37,834 bases of DNA, taken from Candidatus Tectomicrobia bacterium RIFCSPLOWO2_12_FULL_69_37 (GTDB lineage Bacteria; UBA8248). The stretch covers positions 1-37,834 of the forward strand of contig MGDP01000105.1 of the NCBI GenBank assembly GCA_001790955.1, in the 5' to 3' direction. Made by a program: the position numbers and the translations under genes. Of this stretch, positions 21,129 through 36,819 are shown one piece after another; within the stretch, counting starts at the first letter, position 1, and every line of letters begins with the position of its first letter. The notes beneath the pieces were generated by a model that saw nothing but the letters and a program-made list of their open reading frames with translations, searched no databases and was not told the origin of the DNA.

Positions 21129-21201
21129 CAGAAGTTGCCGGGGTGGGCGTGGTGCGCCGGGAGACACCTCGTCGGAGGCTTCAGGAAGCAGAAAGGTGGC
21201 A

Positions 21202-23499
21202 ATGCGCATGCGAGTCGGGCGAATCGTTCTCTCGGGGTTGGCGGTGGGCGTGCTCTGCCTCGGCATTTCCCTCATGCCGGGCGGCGATGCCGCACGGGCC
21301 GCTACGGAACCGGCGGCCGATGCCCTTCCTCCCAAAGGACCGGTGGGATCGGGTTATTTCCGCGGCCTCGTGGCTGCCGATCTGGACGGCGACGGCAAGC
21401 GCGAACTCCTATCCAGCGTTTTGGCCACGGGCCAGATCTATATATGGCGCACCCGCAAGGAGGGCGGCTGGACCGAGCCCTCGGTACTCGCGACGGGTGG
21501 CGAGGTCCGCACCATCACGATCGCGGACCTGGACGGCGATTCCCTCCCCGAGATCATCGTCGCCATCCGAGGGAAAGAGAGCGGCATCGAGATCTGGAAG
21601 AACCTGGGGAACCTCCGCTTCCGCCGGGTGGCCGGGCCCGGGCGGGGCGAGGTGTTCGCGGATGTGGCCGCGGCCGACTTCAACTACGACGGGAGGCCAG
21701 ACCTCATCGCCGTCAAGGAGGAGCCCGGCGCGCAGGGAGGCCTCAGGGTCTGGCTGAACCTCGGCGCCGATACATGGCAGGCCGCCCCGGCTCCCCGGGC
21801 CGAAGGCCCCTACCACAGCGTCGCCGTGGCGGACCTGAACCAGGACGGAATCCTGGACATCGTCGCCGCCGGCGACGGGCCGGGAGGCGGCCTTCGGGCC
21901 TGGCTGGGCCGTGACAAGCACCTCAACTGGGGGAGGCCCAACCAGCTCTCCGAGGGGGACTTCTGGGGCGTGACCGTCGCCGACCTCAACGGAGACGGAA
22001 TTCCCGACCTTCTGGCGGCCGGAAAGAATACGGGCATCCAGGTCTGGCAAGGCTTGGGCAAGGGGACCTTCAACCGCATGGCCAGCCCCGCCTCCGGGGG
22101 AAGCTTCTTCTTCGCGGTGGCCGTGGACCGGGACGGAGACGGCCGGGCGGACATCGTGGCCAGCACGATGGACGGGAAGGGTCTCCGCTACTGGCGTCAG
22201 GACGCCACGCTTGGCTGGATTGCTCATCGCCTACTCGCCGAGACGGGCCTTTTCCACAGTCTGGTGGCGGCCGACCTCGACGGCGACGGCCGGCTCGACC
22301 TGGGAGCCGCCACCCACGGCGAGGGCGTGGCCGTCTGGCCCGGCTTCGGCAAGCCCCTGCCCGGACAGATCCCGGGCGAGAAGGCCGCCAAGCATGACCT
22401 GCCCCTCGCCCCCGGCACCCGGATGCCTGATCTCGCGTCGGGTCGCCCCGTCCCGCTGCCCCAGCCCGCGAGGCCGGCGAAGCTCGAGGGCGCCTTCCCG
22501 GAGAAGCGCCTGCCCGGCGAATACGTCATCGGTCCGGGGGACGTCCTCACCGTCGCCATCTGGAGGGGCGTCACCGCCCAAAGCCAGCAGGTTCAAGTGA
22601 GCGAGCGGGGCACAGTGAGTATCGGGCTCGTTGACGACGTCCAGGCTGCGGGACTGACCATCAAGGAGGTCAGCGACCTCCTCAAGGAGAAGCTCAAAAA
22701 ATTCATCAAGAATCCGCGCGTGGACGTGGTGATGACGAGATTCGGGAGCAAGATCGTCCGCGTGATGGGCGCCGTCGCGCGGCCTCAGACCTACAACGTC
22801 TCCGCGACGGTCACCCTCCTCGACGCCATCCTTCTCGCGGGCGGCCATCTGCCCACCACCCCCGAGCGCCCCGGCGGCGATCTCACCCACGTCTCCCTCC
22901 GGCGCGGCGGAAGGACGCGGACCGTGAACATCCTCCGATACATCTCGGGCGCCGCGGGCGAAGCGGACAACCCCGACCTCCTGGACGGCGATCTCGTGTT
23001 CGTGCCCGAGTCGAGCTCCGAGCTGATCGAGCAGAAGCGGGTCTACGTGTTCGGCGAGGTCCGGGCGCCGGGCGTGCACCCCCTGACGTTCAACATGCGC
23101 GTGCTCGACGCCATCGCGCGTGCGGGCGGCTTCCTCGATTACGCCCTTCAGACCGAGGTCCGGATCATCCGCGGCGACGCCGAGCGGCCCGAGGTCGTCC
23201 ACGCCGACATCGAGGCCATGCTCAAGCGCGGCGACCGGCGCGGGGACCAGCTCCTGAAGCCGAACGACGTCGTGTTCGTCCCGCGGACGGCCGTCGGCGA
23301 CATCACCGACTTCATCCGGAAGTCTCAGCCCATTCTTGACTTCTTGTTCTACCCGCAGCGCTTCAAGGATGCCTATTCGATCAACTCGAACCTCCTGAAG
23401 TTCGACTTGGGCGGCCCGAGCCGGGCCACCGCGGAGCGGGGCGGCGAGGGGACGTTCACGCCGGGCACGCGCACAGTCACTCTCACAGAGGTGCAGTAG
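21202..23499 (+). CDS. Wza-like polysaccharide export protein with N-terminal seven-repeat FG-GAP/VCBS propeller
   Basis: The protein has 765 residues. The ATG at 21202 was chosen (AAAGG 5 bases upstream); the GTG at 21196 is possible. A signal peptide with an ARA-A cleavage site covers residues 1 to about 35; no lipobox is seen, unlike E. coli Wza. Seven calcium-loop repeats follow with a period of about 49 residues, for example ADLDGDGKREL, ADLNQDGILDI and ADLNGDGIPDL, enough for one seven-bladed propeller (about 45-400). Residue 440 starts the export domain (YVIGPGDVLTVAIW). SLBB-type domains start near 516 (IVRVMGAVARPQTYNV) and 612 (KRVYVFGEVRAPGVHPL). It probably forms the periplasmic/outer-membrane channel, and the kinase gene starts 5 bases after it. 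Confidence 0.88.
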   Translation: MRMRVGRIVLSGLAVGVLCLGISLMPGGDAARAATEPAADALPPKGPVGSGYFRGLVAADLDGDGKRELLSSVLATGQIYIWRTRKEGGWTEPSVLATGGEVRTITIADLDGDSLPEIIVAIRGKESGIEIWKNLGNLRFRRVAGPGRGEVFADVAAADFNYDGRPDLIAVKEEPGAQGGLRVWLNLGADTWQAAPAPRAEGPYHSVAVADLNQDGILDIVAAGDGPGGGLRAWLGRDKHLNWGRPNQLSEGDFWGVTVADLNGDGIPDLLAAGKNTGIQVWQGLGKGTFNRMASPASGGSFFFAVAVDRDGDGRADIVASTMDGKGLRYWRQDATLGWIAHRLLAETGLFHSLVAADLDGDGRLDLGAATHGEGVAVWPGFGKPLPGQIPGEKAAKHDLPLAPGTRMPDLASGRPVPLPQPARPAKLEGAFPEKRLPGEYVIGPGDVLTVAIWRGVTAQSQQVQVSERGTVSIGLVDDVQAAGLTIKEVSDLLKEKLKKFIKNPRVDVVMTRFGSKIVRVMGAVARPQTYNVSATVTLLDAILLAGGHLPTTPERPGGDLTHVSLRRGGRTRTVNILRYISGAAGEADNPDLLDGDLVFVPESSSELIEQKRVYVFGEVRAPGVHPLTFNMRVLDAIARAGGFLDYALQTEVRIIRGDAERPEVVHADIEAMLKRGDRRGDQLLKPNDVVFVPRTAVGDITDFIRKSQPILDFLFYPQRFKDAYSINSNLLKFDLGGPSRATAERGGEGTFTPGTRTVTLTEVQ

Positions 23500-23504
23500 C
23501 CGTC

Positions 23505-26500
23505 ATGGGCCAGTATGACATCAATTTGCGGGACTACTGGCGGATCATCCGCAAGCGCAAGATCATTGTCATCTTCACCATCATCGTCCTGGGCTTCTTC
23601 AGCTTCGTCTTCGCCAAGCTGAACGAGCCCGCCCCCATTTACTCTGCTTCCAGCGCCGTCCGCATCGAGCAGAACACCGCCCTCTCCGGCCTGGTGAGCG
23701 ATGCTTCCTCCTCCCTGGGCGCGGCCGCGGAAATCACCACCCAGACAGCCGTCATCCGCAGCTACCCCGTCATGGAGCAGGTGGCCAAGGAACTGGGGAT
23801 GGTGGACAAGTCCCTCAAGTCGGACGACATCGCCAAGAACAGCCGCCTGGTCTCCGTCATCAATGGGCTGGCGGGACAGGCGAACACCAGCCAGGTGGGC
23901 GACACCAACATCATTTCCATCACGATCACCTCGGGCGACCCGGACCAGGCCGCGCGCATGGCCAACACCATCGCCTCGGTCTTCCGGCAGTTCGACTACG
24001 AAAACCGCAACCAGACCGTCCTGCGCCAGCACGACTTCATCAAGGGGCAGCTCACCCAGAGCGAGCGGCGCCTCAAGGACTCCGAGAGAATCATCAAGGA
24101 GTTCAAGGAAGCCAAGAACTTCCTCTCTCTCTCTGTCGAAGCGACGTCCGTCGGGCGAGCCCTCGAGCGGCTGCAAGAGGTCGTCTCGGAACAGAAAAAG
24201 ATCCTCAAGCGGATCCGGGAGGCCATCGAGCAGGTCCGCAACATCCGCGACGTGCGTGCAGGCAAGACCGAGCGCGTCCCCGTGGACGACATCGACCCGG
24301 GCCTCGCCCGGCTCAACCAGCAGCTGGTGGAGCTCCAAGTCCAGCGCGACAACCTCCTCCAGGAGTTCACGCCGGAGCATCCGGCGGTGAGCGACATCCT
24401 CCTGCAGATCAGCAACGTCGTCCGCCAGATGCTGATCATCCTGGAGGGGCGGGAGAAAACCCTGGCTGACATCACCAAGGCCCGCGAGGGCGAGCTCAAC
24501 TCGGTCGAGGGGCGCAACAAGGAGATACCGGACCTCTCCCTCCAGCTCCAGCGCTTCGAGCGCCAGCTGGCCACGGATCAGGAAGTCCACAACATGCTGC
24601 GCCAGAAGTTCGAGGAGGTGAGCATCCGCCTCGCCGGCACCCAGCACCTCGTGCGCATCGTGAAACCCGCCTTCCGTCCGCTGGGCCGCGACAACCCGCC
24701 GCAAATCTTCTTAAACAGCTTCGTGGGAGCCCTGCTGGGCCTCGTGGTGGGCCTCGCCTTCGCCCTGGTGCTCGAGACGATGGACACCTCCATCGGCACC
24801 ATCGAGGACGTGGAGGCGTACCTCGAAGTCCCCGTCTTGGGCGTCATCCCCATCCTCGACAACGAGGAGCTCGAGCGCCAGTACGTGGAGAGCAACCCCG
24901 AGCGTGCGGGGCGCTTCACGCCCGACATCTACGGCCGCCTGGTCACTCACTTCGTCCCACGCTCGCCGATCGCGGAGGCCTACCGCTCATTCCGCACCCA
25001 GATGGAGTTCGTGTCGGTCGAGAAGGGCGGAAACACGTTCGTCATCACGAGCAGCACGCCGGGCGAAGGGAAGACGACCACCTCCATCAACTTCGCCATC
25101 ACCTGCGCCCAGTCGAACAAGCGCACCCTGCTCATCGACGCCGACATGCGGAAGCCCGTCATCTACCGCATCTTCGGCATCGACCGGGAGCCCGGCCTCA
25201 CCGACATCCTTCTGGGCAACAACGCCTGGGCCGACTGCATCCGCACCATGACCGACATCATGCTCGGCAAGTTCGACATGGAAGACATCATGCTGACGCC
25301 GGGTCTCGACAACCTGAACCTCCTCACCTGCGGGCACATACCGCCGAACCCCTCCGAGCTCCTCAACTCGAACCGCATGACACAGTTCCTCGAAGAGATC
25401 CGCAATGAGTTCGACGTCATCGTGATCGACACGCCTCCCCTCCTGCCCGTGACGGACGCCGCCATCCTGGGCACGCGGGTGGACGGCTGCGTCCTCGTCT
25501 ACCGCGTGGGCGCGATCGCCCGCGGAGCGCTCAAGCGGGCGAAGATGCAGCTCGACAACGTCCGCGCGAAGGTGTGGGGCGTGGTGCTCAACTCGATGCG
25601 CCCCGAGGCCACCTCCGACATCGACTCCATCCGCTACCAATCCACCTACTACTACGGCGGCTACACAGAGGAGCGCGCCGAGGCCAACCTCGCCGACCTG
25701 CCCTTCTATCAGCGCTGGTACCGCCAAACGATAGAGCTCATCTCCCCCTCCGAACGGGACGACGTGACCGAGGAGGCTTCGCCCCTGGCCAAGGGGCTGG
25801 CCGCCGCCGCCCTGCTCCTCTCCCTCTCCCTCCTTGGGGCCGGGGCGGCCTGGCAGATGGGCGCGAAGCTGCCGATCGTGGGCTCTCTCACCTCGCGCGA
25901 GGCGTCGGTCGGCGCGCCGCCCAAGGACTCCCTGGCCCCGCTGGGCGCCATCTGGAAAAGCACGCAGGAAGCGGCCACCCCGGCCTCGACCCCGGCAGCA
26001 CCCGCGACTCCCCAGGCGCCCGCGGCACCGGCCCCCGGCGGGCAGGGAAGTCCGCCCCAAACCCCGCCCGCCGGCAAGGCGCCCCAGGAGCAGGCCCCCG
26101 CACCTTCTCAAAGCCGCGCCCCCGCCCAGCCGGCGGCCCCGGTCAAGCCGAGGCAGGGAGCTTCCCTCCCGCCTCTGGAGGGAAGCCTCTTCGCCTGGAC
26201 CCCTCAGCCCTCCTCCGGGGATGTCCTCACCGAGTCGGCCGCGATCCGGCGGGCGGTCATTCGCCTCGCGAGCCAGACCCCTCGAGGCGACCTCCTCTCC
26301 GGAGAGGAAAGCCGGCGGCCCTACAGCATCGTGTTCAGCCACAACCGCAACCCTGCGCTCACCCGTCACCACCTGTCGATCCTTCGCCAGGCCGGCCTCT
26401 CGCCCTCTTTCGTCCCCGTCCGAAGGCTGGAGGGCAGTGCCGATCGTGTGTTCCTGGGAGCCTTCGCCTCCCAGGAAGAGGCCAAGGCCTTCATCGAAAA

Positions 26501-26768
26501 ACACCTCAAGCCCCTTCTCCAGCCCGGGGAGGAGCCCTACGTCGACCGCCTGCCCTTCGCCCTCGAGGTGGGCCGCGGCCTCGCCCCCGGCGAAGCGGAC
26601 GTGATGCGGGTCATCGTCAAGGCGGCGGACCTGCACCCCACCTTCGAGGAAGCGGCGGACGGCAAGGGCCGGATGCTCATCGGAGCGTTCCGGTCGCCTT
26701 CGGAGGCCGAGCAGGCCGCCATCCTCCTCCAGCGGGAGAAGATTTCCTTCCAACTCGTCACCCGCTGA
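23505..26768 (+). CDS. Wzc-like polysaccharide co-polymerase/tyrosine autokinase with C-terminal membrane helix and SPOR-like repeats
   Basis: The protein has 1087 residues; Wzc-type proteins are usually about 720-750. A Wzz-type domain opens the protein, with helix 1 at about 20-37, a periplasmic coiled-coil region and helix 2 at about 405-424. The cytoplasmic kinase has Walker A PGEGKTTT (Lys523), A' LLIDADMRKP (Asp545, Asp547) and Walker B VIVIDTPPLLP (Asp642). A tyrosine cluster (YQSTYYYGGY, 711-720) follows, as expected for autophosphorylation. The rest is extra: a third helix (about 764-786), a Pro/Ala-rich linker (about 825-890) and two SPOR-like repeats carrying VFLGAFASQEEA (982 on) and MLIGAFRSPSEA (1057 on). 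It controls chain length and export with the upstream exporter. The C-terminus should be periplasmic. Confidence 0.9.
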   Translation: MGQYDINLRDYWRIIRKRKIIVIFTIIVLGFFSFVFAKLNEPAPIYSASSAVRIEQNTALSGLVSDASSSLGAAAEITTQTAVIRSYPVMEQVAKELGMVDKSLKSDDIAKNSRLVSVINGLAGQANTSQVGDTNIISITITSGDPDQAARMANTIASVFRQFDYENRNQTVLRQHDFIKGQLTQSERRLKDSERIIKEFKEAKNFLSLSVEATSVGRALERLQEVVSEQKKILKRIREAIEQVRNIRDVRAGKTERVPVDDIDPGLARLNQQLVELQVQRDNLLQEFTPEHPAVSDILLQISNVVRQMLIILEGREKTLADITKAREGELNSVEGRNKEIPDLSLQLQRFERQLATDQEVHNMLRQKFEEVSIRLAGTQHLVRIVKPAFRPLGRDNPPQIFLNSFVGALLGLVVGLAFALVLETMDTSIGTIEDVEAYLEVPVLGVIPILDNEELERQYVESNPERAGRFTPDIYGRLVTHFVPRSPIAEAYRSFRTQMEFVSVEKGGNTFVITSSTPGEGKTTTSINFAITCAQSNKRTLLIDADMRKPVIYRIFGIDREPGLTDILLGNNAWADCIRTMTDIMLGKFDMEDIMLTPGLDNLNLLTCGHIPPNPSELLNSNRMTQFLEEIRNEFDVIVIDTPPLLPVTDAAILGTRVDGCVLVYRVGAIARGALKRAKMQLDNVRAKVWGVVLNSMRPEATSDIDSIRYQSTYYYGGYTEERAEANLADLPFYQRWYRQTIELISPSERDDVTEEASPLAKGLAAAALLLSLSLLGAGAAWQMGAKLPIVGSLTSREASVGAPPKDSLAPLGAIWKSTQEAATPASTPAAPATPQAPAAPAPGGQGSPPQTPPAGKAPQEQAPAPSQSRAPAQPAAPVKPRQGASLPPLEGSLFAWTPQPSSGDVLTESAAIRRAVIRLASQTPRGDLLSGEESRRPYSIVFSHNRNPALTRHHLSILRQAGLSPSFVPVRRLEGSADRVFLGAFASQEEAKAFIEKHLKPLLQPGEEPYVDRLPFALEVGRGLAPGEADVMRVIVKAADLHPTFEEAADGKGRMLIGAFRSPSEAEQAAILLQREKISFQLVTR

Positions 26769-28464: not shown

Positions 28465-30240
28465 ATGGTCCGAAGCTCACGGGCAATCGCCGGAGGGAAC
28501 GCCCCGGGCGGGAGGAGCGGCCTGCTCCCCGTCGTGGGAATTCTGGGGTTCCTCGTGATCGCGGTGGGTATCTCCTACTCGCTCACGCAAACCTCCGCTT
28601 TCGTCGTCCTGGGCGGCCTCGTCGGCGCCGCCCTCCTCGCGGCGAGCTTCATGAGCCCGAAGTTCGGGGTCACCCTCCTTATCCTGTCCATGCTCCTCTC
28701 GCCCGAGTTCGGGAGCGGCGGAGGCAGCGGGGGCACCGACACCAGCCGCGCGGTGGTCGTCCGGCTGGACGACGTCCTCCTCGCCATCCTCTCCCTCGCC
28801 TGGTTCGCCCGCACCGCCGTCCACAAGGACCTGGGCTTCATCCTCAAGAACCCCCTGAACAAGCCCATCGGCTTCTACATCCTGAGCTGCATCATCTCCA
28901 CGATCCTAGGCTTCATGACCGGCGGGGTTCGGGGGCTGATCGGCACCTTCTTCGTGGTCCGCTATTTCGAGTACTTCGTCGTCTTCTTCCTGGCCCTCAA
29001 CTTCATGTCCGACCTCAAGGAGATGAAGCGCTTCATGAGGCTTGCCTACTTCACCTCGATCTGCATCGCCATCTACGGCCTCTCGCAGATCCCGCTCGGG
29101 GTGCGCGTCTCCGCCCCCTTCGAGGGGGACGCAGGGGAGCCGAATACCATGGGCGGCTACCTCCTCCTGATCATGTGCATGGCGGGCGGCCAGATGCTCT
29201 TCGCCCGGGGCCCGCGCGCCATCGGGGGCTGGTCCGCCCTGGTCTTCCTCCTCTTCGTGCCGATGCTGTTCACCGGAAGCCGCGCCGCCTGGCTGGGCAT
29301 ACCCGCCGCGATCGGGGCCTTCTTCGCGTTCTCTCACCGGAAGAAGCAGATCGTCCTTTTCACCGTCGCCTTCGCGTTCCTGGCGACTATCATGCTCCCG
29401 CAGTCGGTCAAGGAGCGAATCCTCTTCACCTTCCAGCAGGAGAAACAGGTAAAGGTCAAGCAGATCCAGGTGGGTGCGGTCCGGCTGGACACCTCCACCA
29501 GCGCCCGGCTGGAGAGTTACAACGAAGCGGTGAGCGGATGGATGAAGAAACCCGTCCTGGGCTGGGGCGTGACCGGTTTCATCTTCGTGGACTCCCAGGC
29601 CGTCCGCACCCTGGTGGAGACCGGTCTGGTGGGGATGGTGGCCTTCCTGTGGCTGGTCTGGACCTATTTCCAGATGGGGCGCAAGGCGATGCGGACCTCG
29701 ACGGACCGCTTCCAGCGGGGGCTCGCCATCGGCTACCTCAGCGCGCTTTTCGCCCTCCTCACCCACAGCATCGGCTCCAATACCTTCATCATCCTGCGGA
29801 TCATGGAGCCTTTCATGCTCTTCACCGCCATGGTGGCCCGCATCCCCGGCCTCTACGAGGAGCGCCAGGCGCAGTGGGAGAAGCTGGAACAGGAGGAAGG
29901 AAGGCCGCTCCTGGAAGCGCCCGCCCCGCCGGAGCCTGAAAAGAAGGAGGAGGGGGAAGAAGACTCCGGCGAGCGCGAATTCGAGAAGAAGCCCTCGGAG
30001 TTCGAGGAGTTCCTCGAGCGGGAGCGCATCGAGATGGCGCGGCGGGAGGTCGAGGCCAAGCTCCAAGAGGCCGCAAAGCCCAAGTTCCGCAAGGAACAGG
30101 GGGCGGACAGGAATGAGGGGAAGGCCGCCCCCGCCATGGCGCAGGGAGGTTCCATCGCGGGTTCCTTCCCCAAGGCGCCTCGAAACGTGGATATGGTGCG
30201 CTCGGCCCCCCCAGGCCCGTTCAGCAAGCGGCCGCGCTGA
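28465..30240 (+). CDS. O-antigen ligase/polymerase family protein (Wzy_C) with long charged C-terminal tail
   Basis: The 591-residue protein is the last gene of the exporter operon. About 11 hydrophobic helices fill residues 20-455. Typical family elements are EGDAGEPNTMGGYLLLIM, LFTGSRAAWLGIPA and, near the large periplasmic loop, GWMKKPVLGWGVTGF followed by VETGLVGMVAFLWLVW. These enzymes polymerise repeat units or ligate glycan to an acceptor outside the inner membrane. The last ~125 residues are hydrophilic and Glu/Lys/Arg-rich (FEEFLERERIEMARREVEAK) and probably form a cytoplasmic coiled coil, which most members lack. Polymerase and ligase cannot be told apart by sequence alone. Confidence 0.85.
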   Translation: MVRSSRAIAGGNAPGGRSGLLPVVGILGFLVIAVGISYSLTQTSAFVVLGGLVGAALLAASFMSPKFGVTLLILSMLLSPEFGSGGGSGGTDTSRAVVVRLDDVLLAILSLAWFARTAVHKDLGFILKNPLNKPIGFYILSCIISTILGFMTGGVRGLIGTFFVVRYFEYFVVFFLALNFMSDLKEMKRFMRLAYFTSICIAIYGLSQIPLGVRVSAPFEGDAGEPNTMGGYLLLIMCMAGGQMLFARGPRAIGGWSALVFLLFVPMLFTGSRAAWLGIPAAIGAFFAFSHRKKQIVLFTVAFAFLATIMLPQSVKERILFTFQQEKQVKVKQIQVGAVRLDTSTSARLESYNEAVSGWMKKPVLGWGVTGFIFVDSQAVRTLVETGLVGMVAFLWLVWTYFQMGRKAMRTSTDRFQRGLAIGYLSALFALLTHSIGSNTFIILRIMEPFMLFTAMVARIPGLYEERQAQWEKLEQEEGRPLLEAPAPPEPEKKEEGEEDSGEREFEKKPSEFEEFLERERIEMARREVEAKLQEAAKPKFRKEQGADRNEGKAAPAMAQGGSIAGSFPKAPRNVDMVRSAPPGPFSKRPR

Positions 30241-33998: not shown

Positions 33999-35129
33999 GT
34001 GCACACGGTCCTCTACTGTCACCACTACACCCAGGTCAGCGGCGGGGAGACGAGCCTCCTCGAGTTGTTCCGCCACCTCGACCGCGGCCGCTTCCGCCCC
34101 CTCCTGGCCGCCCCCGCCGAAGGGCCCTTCCCCGACGCCGCGCGGGAGCTGGGGGTGGAGGTCATCCCCACCCATTACGGCCCCCTCCGGCGACTCGACC
34201 TCATGGCCCGCACCGTCCTCCGCCTGCGGCGGGTGGCGCGCGCGCGGGCCGTCTCCCTCCTCCACGCCAGCGGGCCCGTCACCAACGTCCCGGCCGCGCT
34301 CGCCGCCCGCTCGGCGGGCCTCCCCGCCGTCTGGCACGCCCGAAACCTCATCATCCCGGGCGCGGAGATCGACCTCGACCGCCTCCTCCTCCCCCTCTGC
34401 TCCCTCCTCATCGCCAACTCGGACGCCATCCGGGAGCGCTTCCGCTACCGCAGCGGGCTTTCCCCGAAGACGCTGACCATCATCAACGGGGTAGACGTGG
34501 AGCGCTTTCACCCCGCCGTATCCGGCGAAGAGGTGCGCGCCCGCTTCGGGGCGGGGCCAGCAGAGATTCTGGCGGGCGTGGTGGGCCGGATCTCCCCCAT
34601 CAAGGGCCAGCGCACCTTCATCGAGGCAGCAATGAAGCTCATCCCCCGCTTCCCGGACCTGCGCTTCCTCATCGTGGGGGCGGGCCTCTTCGAAGGGGAG
34701 AAGCAGTGCGAGGCGGAGCTCCGCGCCCTCGTGGCCGCCCGGAACCTGGGAGGCCGCATCTTCTTCTCGGGCTACCAGCGCGACGTGCGGGCCCACACCG
34801 CCGCCCTCGACGTCTGCGTCATCCCCTCGGACGCCGAGCCCTGCGGGCGGGTCATCTTCGAGGCCATGGCCATGGCCAAGCCGGTGGTGGGCACCTCGAC
34901 CGGCGGCACCCCCGAGATCGCCGCCCAGGGAGAGACGAGCTTCCTCGTCCCTCCCCGCGACCCGGAGGCCTTGGCCGCCGCCATCGGGCGTCTCGCCGGA
35001 GACCCCGCCCTGCGGCGGGTGATGGGGGAGGCCGGGCGGCGGCGGGTGACTGAGCGCTTCACCATCCAGGCCCACGCCCGGAAGACCGAGGAAGCCTACC
35101 TCCGGCTCTTGGAAGGCCCCCGTGGCTAG
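33999..35129 (+). CDS. GT4 family glycosyltransferase
   Basis: The protein has 376 residues from the GTG at 33999, preceded by GGAGGAG at 3-4 bases. The first residues (VHTVLYCHHYTQVSGGETSL) form the expected first strand and loop of a GT-B enzyme; an upstream in-frame ATG at 33903 adds unlikely sequence. Other landmarks are NGVDVERFHP, VVGRISPIKGQRTFIEA and the EX7E motif in EPCGRVIFEAMAMAKPVVG. It transfers a nucleotide sugar to a growing glycan in the cytoplasm. Its 3' end overlaps the next gene by 8 bases. Confidence 0.93.
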   Translation: MHTVLYCHHYTQVSGGETSLLELFRHLDRGRFRPLLAAPAEGPFPDAARELGVEVIPTHYGPLRRLDLMARTVLRLRRVARARAVSLLHASGPVTNVPAALAARSAGLPAVWHARNLIIPGAEIDLDRLLLPLCSLLIANSDAIRERFRYRSGLSPKTLTIINGVDVERFHPAVSGEEVRARFGAGPAEILAGVVGRISPIKGQRTFIEAAMKLIPRFPDLRFLIVGAGLFEGEKQCEAELRALVAARNLGGRIFFSGYQRDVRAHTAALDVCVIPSDAEPCGRVIFEAMAMAKPVVGTSTGGTPEIAAQGETSFLVPPRDPEALAAAIGRLAGDPALRRVMGEAGRRRVTERFTIQAHARKTEEAYLRLLEGPRG

Positions 35130-36819
35130 CCTCTCGGGCGCCCTCCGGCTTGCGGCGAGCTCGGCCGAGCGGCGGGAGGGAGGGAGCGCCTCTCTCGCTT
35201 GGGGAGAGGGCTGCGCCGAGGCCCAGAAAGATGGAGAGGCCCAGGCCGTCGTCCTCGGCCCCGCCCGGCAGGCTCTCCACGCCTCCGCCCTCGCCCTGGC
35301 CGCCTGGCCCGAGGGCGCGGAGACCATCCTGCGGCCCTTCCTCCAAGCAGGGCTGGGCTTCGCCTTCGCCGTCTGGGAGGGGGGCCGCCTCACCCTGGGA
35401 GCCGATCCCTGGGGGCTCCAGACCCTTTACTACCGGGAGGCGGAGGGCCAGTTCATCTTCAGCGACCGCTTGGCCGATCTCGCCCGCGAAGGTGGAGAGA
35501 AGCTTCACCTCGCCTCCTGCGAGCATTTCATGCGCTACCTCTCAGTCCCGGCTGGGCGCACCCTCCTGGGCGGGGTGCGGAGGCTCCATCCAGGGGAGCG
35601 CCTGATCGTCTCCTCCGAGGGAACCGCCCGGGAACCATTCATCCCTCTGGGCGGGGAAGCGGCGCCGGGACGCAAGGAGGCCCGGCGGCGGCTGCGGCGC
35701 CTCGCCGAGGAGGCCGTGGGCGCGGCGGCCGACCTGCCCGAAGGGGAACCGGTCGGCCTCCTCCTGAGCGGCGGGATGGACAGCACCGCCCTCCTCGCCA
35801 TCCTCCGGGAGGTGCGGCAGGGGCCCATCCTCGCCATCCACGCCGGAGCCGAGGGGAGCCCGGACCGGGAGTTCGCCCGCGCCATGGCCGGGCGCCACGG
35901 AGTGGAGTTCCTGGACCTCACCCTCGCGCCCCAGGACGCCCGCGAGAGCCTGGGCTGGATCGTGCGCGGCATGGAGGCTCCCGGCGGGAACGCCTCGGCG
36001 GTAGCCAATTGCCGGGCCTTCTCCCTGGCCCGGGAGCGGGGGCTGCGGCGGGTGATCTCGGGCCTGGGGGCGGACGAGGTGTTCGGGGGCCACCAGAAGC
36101 ACCTCCTGGCCCCTTGGTGGCCCTGGCTGAGCCCCCTGCCCCTCTTCCTGCGGCAGGCGATCGCCCGGCGGGCCGGTCACCCCTCCCTCCGCGAGGCGCT
36201 GACGGCCGGGGGCGGACCCGCCGAGATGCACCGGGCGATGTATTCGCTCATGGGGGAGGAAGACTGCGCCCGCCTGCGGGGCGGGCTGGCGCGCTTCGCC
36301 CAGGTTGTCCGCCCGGAGGACGGCCCAAGCCTCCCTACCCGCTACCCCCTCGCCCTTCTCCAGGTGGACCTGGACCAATGGCTGCGGGCCGCCCTTGCTC
36401 CCATGGCCGGGGCCCTTGCGGCGGCGGACGGGCTGGAGCTGGCCCTCCCCCTGGCCTCGGCCCCCATGCTCGAACTCTCGGCCTCGATGCCCCTCTCCTG
36501 GAAGGCGTCTGGGCGCACTGGCAAGCGCCTCCTCCGGGAGGCCCTGGGGGGCCTGGTGCCTCCGGAGGTCATGGGGCGCCCCCGGAAGGGCTTCACCGTA
36601 CCCGTCTCGGAGTGGCTGCGAGGCGATCTGGCCGGCACGGCCCGGGAGCTCCTGGCGCCCGGCAAGGTGGAGCGCTGGTGCCTGCTCGAGCGCGAGGGGC
36701 CCATGCGGCTCCTGGGTGAGCATATCGCGGGCCGCGCCGACTGGGGGCTGGTCCTGTGGGGGTGGATGACCTTCTCGGCGTGGCACGACCGATTTTTCCC
36801 CGCCGAAGGGGGGATGTGA
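35122..36819 (+). CDS. Asparagine-synthetase-like protein lacking the N-terminal glutaminase cysteine
   Basis: The 565-residue protein starts with GTG at 35122, inside the 3' end of the GT4 gene. Residues about 70-190 keep the fold pattern of the class II glutamine amidotransferase domain (GADPWGLQTLYY). The required Cys2 is absent, since the chain begins V/M-ASLSGAL instead of MCGI, and the RGPD motif is missing. The synthetase half is intact, with the PP-loop LLLSGGMDSTALLA (Ser216-Ser221) and SGLGADEVFGGHQKH (313 on). It probably activates a carboxylate with ATP and uses free ammonia or another amine. Amidation of a uronic acid in the glycan is a reasonable guess, given the UDP-sugar dehydrogenase in the locus. 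Confidence 0.88.
   Translation: MASLSGALRLAASSAERREGGSASLAWGEGCAEAQKDGEAQAVVLGPARQALHASALALAAWPEGAETILRPFLQAGLGFAFAVWEGGRLTLGADPWGLQTLYYREAEGQFIFSDRLADLAREGGEKLHLASCEHFMRYLSVPAGRTLLGGVRRLHPGERLIVSSEGTAREPFIPLGGEAAPGRKEARRRLRRLAEEAVGAAADLPEGEPVGLLLSGGMDSTALLAILREVRQGPILAIHAGAEGSPDREFARAMAGRHGVEFLDLTLAPQDARESLGWIVRGMEAPGGNASAVANCRAFSLARERGLRRVISGLGADEVFGGHQKHLLAPWWPWLSPLPLFLRQAIARRAGHPSLREALTAGGGPAEMHRAMYSLMGEEDCARLRGGLARFAQVVRPEDGPSLPTRYPLALLQVDLDQWLRAALAPMAGALAAADGLELALPLASAPMLELSASMPLSWKASGRTGKRLLREALGGLVPPEVMGRPRKGFTVPVSEWLRGDLAGTARELLAPGKVERWCLLEREGPMRLLGEHIAGRADWGLVLWGWMTFSAWHDRFFPAEGGM

Follow-up and report, generated by a model that had tools for sequence, protein, structure and literature searches.

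Does a Wzc-type tyrosine autokinase that continues past its tyrosine cluster carry SPOR domains into the periplasm, and what might such a tail do in polysaccharide assembly? The question is raised by one open reading frame in the window, the 37,834-nucleotide stretch of DNA analysed here. The frame (23505 to 26768, on the plus strand like all features given below) runs without stop or frameshift along 1087 aa and encodes a SPOR-tailed BY-kinase of the Wzc polysaccharide co-polymerase type. Residues 1-440 (23505 to 24824) form the Wzz/GNVR periplasmic part, flanked by TM1 (about residues 19-39) and TM2 (about 401-423), both helices in the AF2 model. The cytoplasmic BY-kinase domain occupies residues 441-710 (24825 to 25634) and is followed by the tyrosine cluster YQSTYYYGGY at residues 711-720 (25635 to 25664). 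Pfam matched Wzz at 5-97 and AAA_31 at 514-656, with GNVR below cut-off in this protein, and the sequence contains Walker A (STPGEGKTT), A' (LLIDADMRKP) and B (VIVIDTPP) motifs. The protein scores 182 bits against TIGR01007, the NCBIfam model for polysaccharide biosynthesis tyrosine autokinases (cut-off 108). With Wzz and BY-kinase parts in one chain, all three Walker motifs and a tyrosine cluster, it classifies as a PCP-2a BY-kinase; the family models set no sequence criterion for a free tyrosine-cluster end or for having two transmembrane helices, features in which variants differ. The kinase domain is related to that of the XrtA/EpsG-type tyrosine kinases (TIGR03018, 144 bits), but the protein misses the curated thresholds of both TIGR03018 and TIGR03029, and membership of the XrtA and EpsG equivalogs was rejected.

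About 365 residues follow the tyrosine cluster, so that it is not the free C-terminus. A third transmembrane helix (TM3, residues 764-786; 25794 to 25862) had been predicted from the sequence, and hydropathy, alignment and the full-length AlphaFold model, where it appears as a helix at 760-784, all place it there. Beyond it lies a Pro/Ala-rich linker at residues 787-935 (25863 to 26309), predicted to be disordered, with pLDDT below 50 over 792-909 and 921-935. The existence of the linker was correctly foreseen; its length was not, being about 150 residues rather than about 65, and the first fold starts near residue 938. The overall pTM of the full-length model is low (0.37), and the placement of domains relative to one another was therefore left unused. 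The periplasmic end of TM3 (about 25850 to 25862) carries a recurrent W-Q/R-x-G motif, W-Q-x-G in the window; W followed by Q, R, K, H, T or E occurs at this point in 48 of 59 helix-bearing relatives, including kinases that stop right after the helix.

Two SPOR-type domains make up the remainder, SPOR domain 1 at residues 938-1015 (26316 to 26549) and SPOR domain 2, a weaker sequence match, at residues 1016-1087 (26550 to 26765). Pfam SPOR matched the whole protein at 957-1002 with 27.7 bits (cut-off 21, E 3.6e-6), and the isolated tail reached 31.1 bits (PF05036, E 3e-7). In the sister protein of genome G001 the best SPOR stretch is 1020-1061, in the second repeat; Pfam recovery in the family relatives is weak (17.8-22.1 bits). 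The AlphaFold model of the tail, built from a 32-sequence alignment, has a mean pLDDT of 88 and contains two consecutive beta-alpha-beta-beta-alpha-beta (RNP-like) units. When a profile of the tandem tail was searched against the PDB, the three best structures were DedD (E 1.7e-8), CwlC (2.8e-7) and FtsN (1.3e-5). A Foldseek search of the tandem model against the PDB ranked ACT-domain pairs first rather than SPOR entries; most SPOR chains in the PDB are single-domain, and the fold class is shared. The intact frame, the Pfam match, the PDB profile matches and the tandem-fold model together establish that the observation is real. The original prediction of two SPOR-like repeats thus stands, each repeat being a complete SPOR-type fold, and the profile search and structure prediction proposed with it returned SPOR above the Pfam cut-off and two SPOR folds rather than none.

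Each hydrophobic helix switches the side of the membrane, and from this helix parity we infer that the kinase C-terminus is periplasmic, in support of the earlier placement. The positive-inside pattern at TM3 holds on average only (cytoplasmic side favoured in 18, the other side in 8 of 42 comparable proteins), and in the window protein the flanking charges are 2 and 2, favouring neither side.

A whole-protein search of 61 genomes recovered the tailed kinase in G001 (84% identical over the whole protein), G008 (62%) and G007 (60%, with the first part on another contig). In G003 a contig break inside the linker separates the kinase, which closes one contig, from the tail, which opens another; the G003 kinase frame (L008, contig C21) is also interrupted at the TPP motif, near residue 645, either through an assembly error or because the copy is broken. 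One genome of the family (L043) is publicly listed as an uncultured Nitrospinae bacterium. Compared with its G001 counterpart, the window protein has dN/dS values of 0.045 for the kinase, 0.17 for the Wzz part, 0.33 for the linker and, for the SPOR folds, 0.19 and 0.23; the SPOR tail is under purifying selection. An assembly artefact or an accidental fusion is ruled out by this selection together with the presence of the intact tail in several genomes.

The selection result also bears on the idea that an FtsN/DedD-like SPOR protein was passively fused to the kinase and that the tail is itself without function. Stand-alone proteins consisting of a transmembrane helix, a linker and tandem SPOR domains do exist in the same phyla, and tail presence changes repeatedly on the kinase tree (see below), as such a fusion would allow. 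The SPOR folds are nevertheless constrained to much the same degree as the periplasmic Wzz part and the tail is retained across a phylum, so that we regard this explanation as very improbable; the constraint on the folds already disfavours it.

How widely the layout occurs was assessed by scanning GTDB genome contigs with the family alignment, the relatives being sampled from two peptide patterns. Eighty loci were kept, their kinase frames were extended to the stops and the region after the kinase domain was examined. Pfam was run on 40 long tails (that of the window, those of four other whole-genome loci and 35 from the 80 loci) and found SPOR in 36 and bacterial SH3 in one. SPOR-tailed kinases occur in Nitrospinota-labelled relatives, Rokubacteria, Latescibacterota, Methylomirabilota and Deltaproteobacteria; the order Wzz-kinase-TM-SPOR, for which a search had been proposed, is thus present in the family and in several other phyla. 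The window family and the entire Rokubacterial clade have tandem SPOR tails (22 rows in the clade, one of them labelled Chloroflexota yet nested with Rokubacteria), as do three Latescibacterota, one Methylomirabilota and one Deltaproteobacterium; single or partial SPOR tails occur in five further rows, including G023 of another family. The tyrosine cluster is conserved in all SPOR-tailed kinases counted, with four to six tyrosines. Among the relatives lacking SPOR, 23 keep the third helix with little or nothing beyond it, many of them Planctomycetota (Brocadiales and kin), and about twenty have no C-terminal extension at all. In three Nitrospinota kinases (L044, L045 and L051) the chain continues with two extra helices and finishes in a long acidic stretch that shares a conserved 'FKGF'-like motif, and Pfam found no SPOR and no other shared family in this stretch.

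A quick kinase tree with several long branches requires no fewer than 10 changes in tail presence. The tails are strongly clustered on it, and gains cannot be distinguished from losses. A single origin of the SPOR tail is not established. Nor is the tail always a separate gene: in the phylum of genome G061 a strong tail match occurs in 41 of 95 genomes, 35 of them within frames longer than 850 aa, which refutes that possibility, named at the outset as one that would count against the fusion. The short tail frames checked lie at contig ends (L132, L133) or are a stand-alone paralogue (L134, L138). The stand-alone gene for a transmembrane helix, linker and tandem SPOR adjoins a DegQ/HtrA-like protease gene in L134 and L138, which belong to two genomes of the G061 phylum. 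Tandem SPOR cassettes resembling the kinase tails also occur on other separate proteins, namely L123 (transmembrane helix and linker) and L124 and L125 (TPR-repeat).

The best functional clue is an exchange of SPOR for SH3 between two close relatives. The kinases of L092 and L096 are 88% identical over an aligned 852 residues that include TM3 and the proximal linker, after which all similarity stops. The C-terminus of L092 consists of two bacterial SH3 domains (SH3_3 1.2e-15, SH3_4 7.1e-14). L096 ends in SPOR, recognised by the tail profile at 2.6e-15 and just under the Pfam cut-off in the whole protein; the second of its SPOR repeats is truncated. SH3_3 and SPOR, though unrelated in fold, are both common among wall-associated proteins. 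The replacement of one by the other indicates that TM3 and the linker are a carrier for a wall-type domain.

Chiefly on the strength of this replacement, which is its main inferential support, we favour the reading that the periplasmic SPOR tail on TM3 is an envelope tether of a Wzc-type (PCP-2a) co-polymerase and tyrosine autokinase, to which we assign a probability of roughly 55%. The C-terminus of the kinase would cross the inner membrane a third time and put two SPOR domains into the periplasm on a long flexible linker. If an octamer forms as in Wzc, its eight tails would display sixteen SPOR folds in all, each pair on a linker of about 150 disordered residues that is long enough to reach into the peptidoglycan layer. 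The tail could then hold the co-polymerase, octamer and phosphorylated monomers alike, at the peptidoglycan layer under the Wza pore. Keeping the co-polymerase at the export site through assembly and disassembly would be the simplest function of such a tether. Candidate ligands of the tail are denuded glycan, another wall structure or the exported polymer.

Denuded glycan is the ligand invoked when the tail is taken as a septal targeting device, binding amidase-stripped glycan at division sites and so confining export to the septum or coupling it to division. The SPOR domains studied so far bind in this way (PMC6895207). The genomes, that of the window included, encode Amidase_3 proteins, so that denuded glycan can be present. 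In the SPOR domain of RlpA, the glutamine at profile position 8 (Q270) contacts the glycan, and the homologous Q251 of FtsN and Q351 of DamX are needed (PMC6895207). The window protein has V at this position in the first repeat and E in the second. In first tail domains the residue is V (three times), A or I within the window family, E in 22 of 22 Rokubacterial rows and H in the three tandem Latescibacterota. Of 37 first tail domains only 3 retain the glutamine, compared with 37 of 45 other SPOR domains from the same genomes, a control somewhat biased to consensus since its members were chosen as Pfam hits. The controls lacking it include several second domains of tandems and L186, a stand-alone relative of the kinase tails. 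As the tail rows are not independent, the residue was also counted by lineage and is kept in 4 of 12 tail lineages. Many contacts in the solved SPOR-glycan complex are main-chain (PMC6895207) and the glutamine is not strictly required, so that its loss weakens the claim of denuded-glycan binding without refuting it. The exchange with SH3 likewise speaks for association with the wall in general and not with septal glycan in particular. That the tail binds peptide-stripped glycan and sits at the septum, as the original prediction had assumed, is accordingly not supported by these results, and we consider septal targeting unlikely.

The surrounding genes are those of polysaccharide export. Upstream of the kinase lies a Wza-type polysaccharide export protein with N-terminal FG-GAP/VCBS repeats (21196 to 23499; Pfam FG-GAP_3, Poly_export and SLBB), and the kinase is followed by a 534-residue frame and a Wzy_C polymerase or O-antigen ligase-like protein (28465 to 30240; Pfam Wzy_C, with synteny in relatives). 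A Wza-type gene adjoins the kinase in G001 and G008 as well, and in most of the relatives' loci the kinase has a Wza-type export gene and a gene of Wzy type as neighbours, which identifies its setting as Wzx/Wzy-type polysaccharide assembly. The form of Wza with N-terminal FG-GAP/VCBS repeats recurs next to kinases of either kind, SPOR-tailed or not; a repeat domain was matched at 23 loci, for example L034, L035, L049, L055 and L062.

This setting is compatible with SPOR folds turned to binding protein or polymer, contacting Wza, which here has an FG-GAP propeller of its own, or the growing polysaccharide and so aligning the inner- and outer-membrane parts. The tail does occur in Wza-kinase-Wzy loci, and what stands in place of the glycan-contact residue varies from lineage to lineage (E, V, H, Y, C, R or L). 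Against it, SPOR-tailed and SPOR-less kinases alike adjoin Wza, whether or not it has FG-GAP repeats, and the exchange with SH3 better fits wall binding; we think a change of this kind improbable.

The wall tether, our preferred reading, would also alter the picture of autophosphorylation. In Wzc of E. coli the free tyrosine-rich tail enters the active site of the neighbouring subunit and phosphorylation dissolves the octamer (PMC8285477). The present kinase shares with Wzc and Etk the Wzz-GNVR part, two flanking transmembrane helices, Walker motifs, tyrosine cluster and Wza-kinase-Wzy locus, but Wzc has two transmembrane helices and a free tyrosine tail (PMC8285477), whereas TM3, linker and tandem SPOR are added here. 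The tyrosine segment would have no free end but form a loop with a membrane attachment at either side. Held between the kinase domain and TM3, the cluster would have to be phosphorylated as part of this loop, and the picture drawn for a free tail changes to that extent. A further-reaching proposal is a receptor-like tyrosine kinase of the cell wall, in which the periplasmic SPOR or SH3 tail senses the state of the wall and acts through TM3 and the tyrosine loop to set the phosphorylation cycle, gating export by peptidoglycan state or position in several phyla, independently of CpsC/D; this is a speculative extension that we would not expect to hold. CpsC/CpsD of the Streptococcus pneumoniae capsule is also a BY-kinase system, one that works at the division site (PMC4574921), but it is localised through the cytoplasmic end of CpsC, has no SPOR domain and has its kinase as a separate protein. 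FtsN, DedD, DamX, RlpA and CwlC share the SPOR fold, which in FtsN, DedD and DamX is also the periplasmic end of a transmembrane helix and linker; they have no kinase and conserve the glycan-contact glutamine, whereas the kinase tails mostly lack it and carry SPOR in tandem.

The SPOR-tailed kinase layout is real, recurrent and apparently undescribed. The claim that no kinase with this layout had been described agrees with the open-access papers searched, which yielded no description of a SPOR-tailed Wzc or BY-kinase; the layout is nonetheless widespread in genomes, and automatic annotations of such kinases surely exist. Capsules and exopolysaccharides are assembled under the control of Wzc-type kinases, and it is unsettled in what way the complex spanning the envelope is fixed to the peptidoglycan and passes through it. 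A naturally recurring class of kinases with a wall-type domain on a third helix, in which almost identical proteins bear either SPOR or SH3, makes this question directly testable. Elsewhere in the window, an ARAGORN call of a tRNA-Arg at 36244 to 36327 falls inside an asparagine-synthase frame (35122 to 36819) and is probably a false positive.
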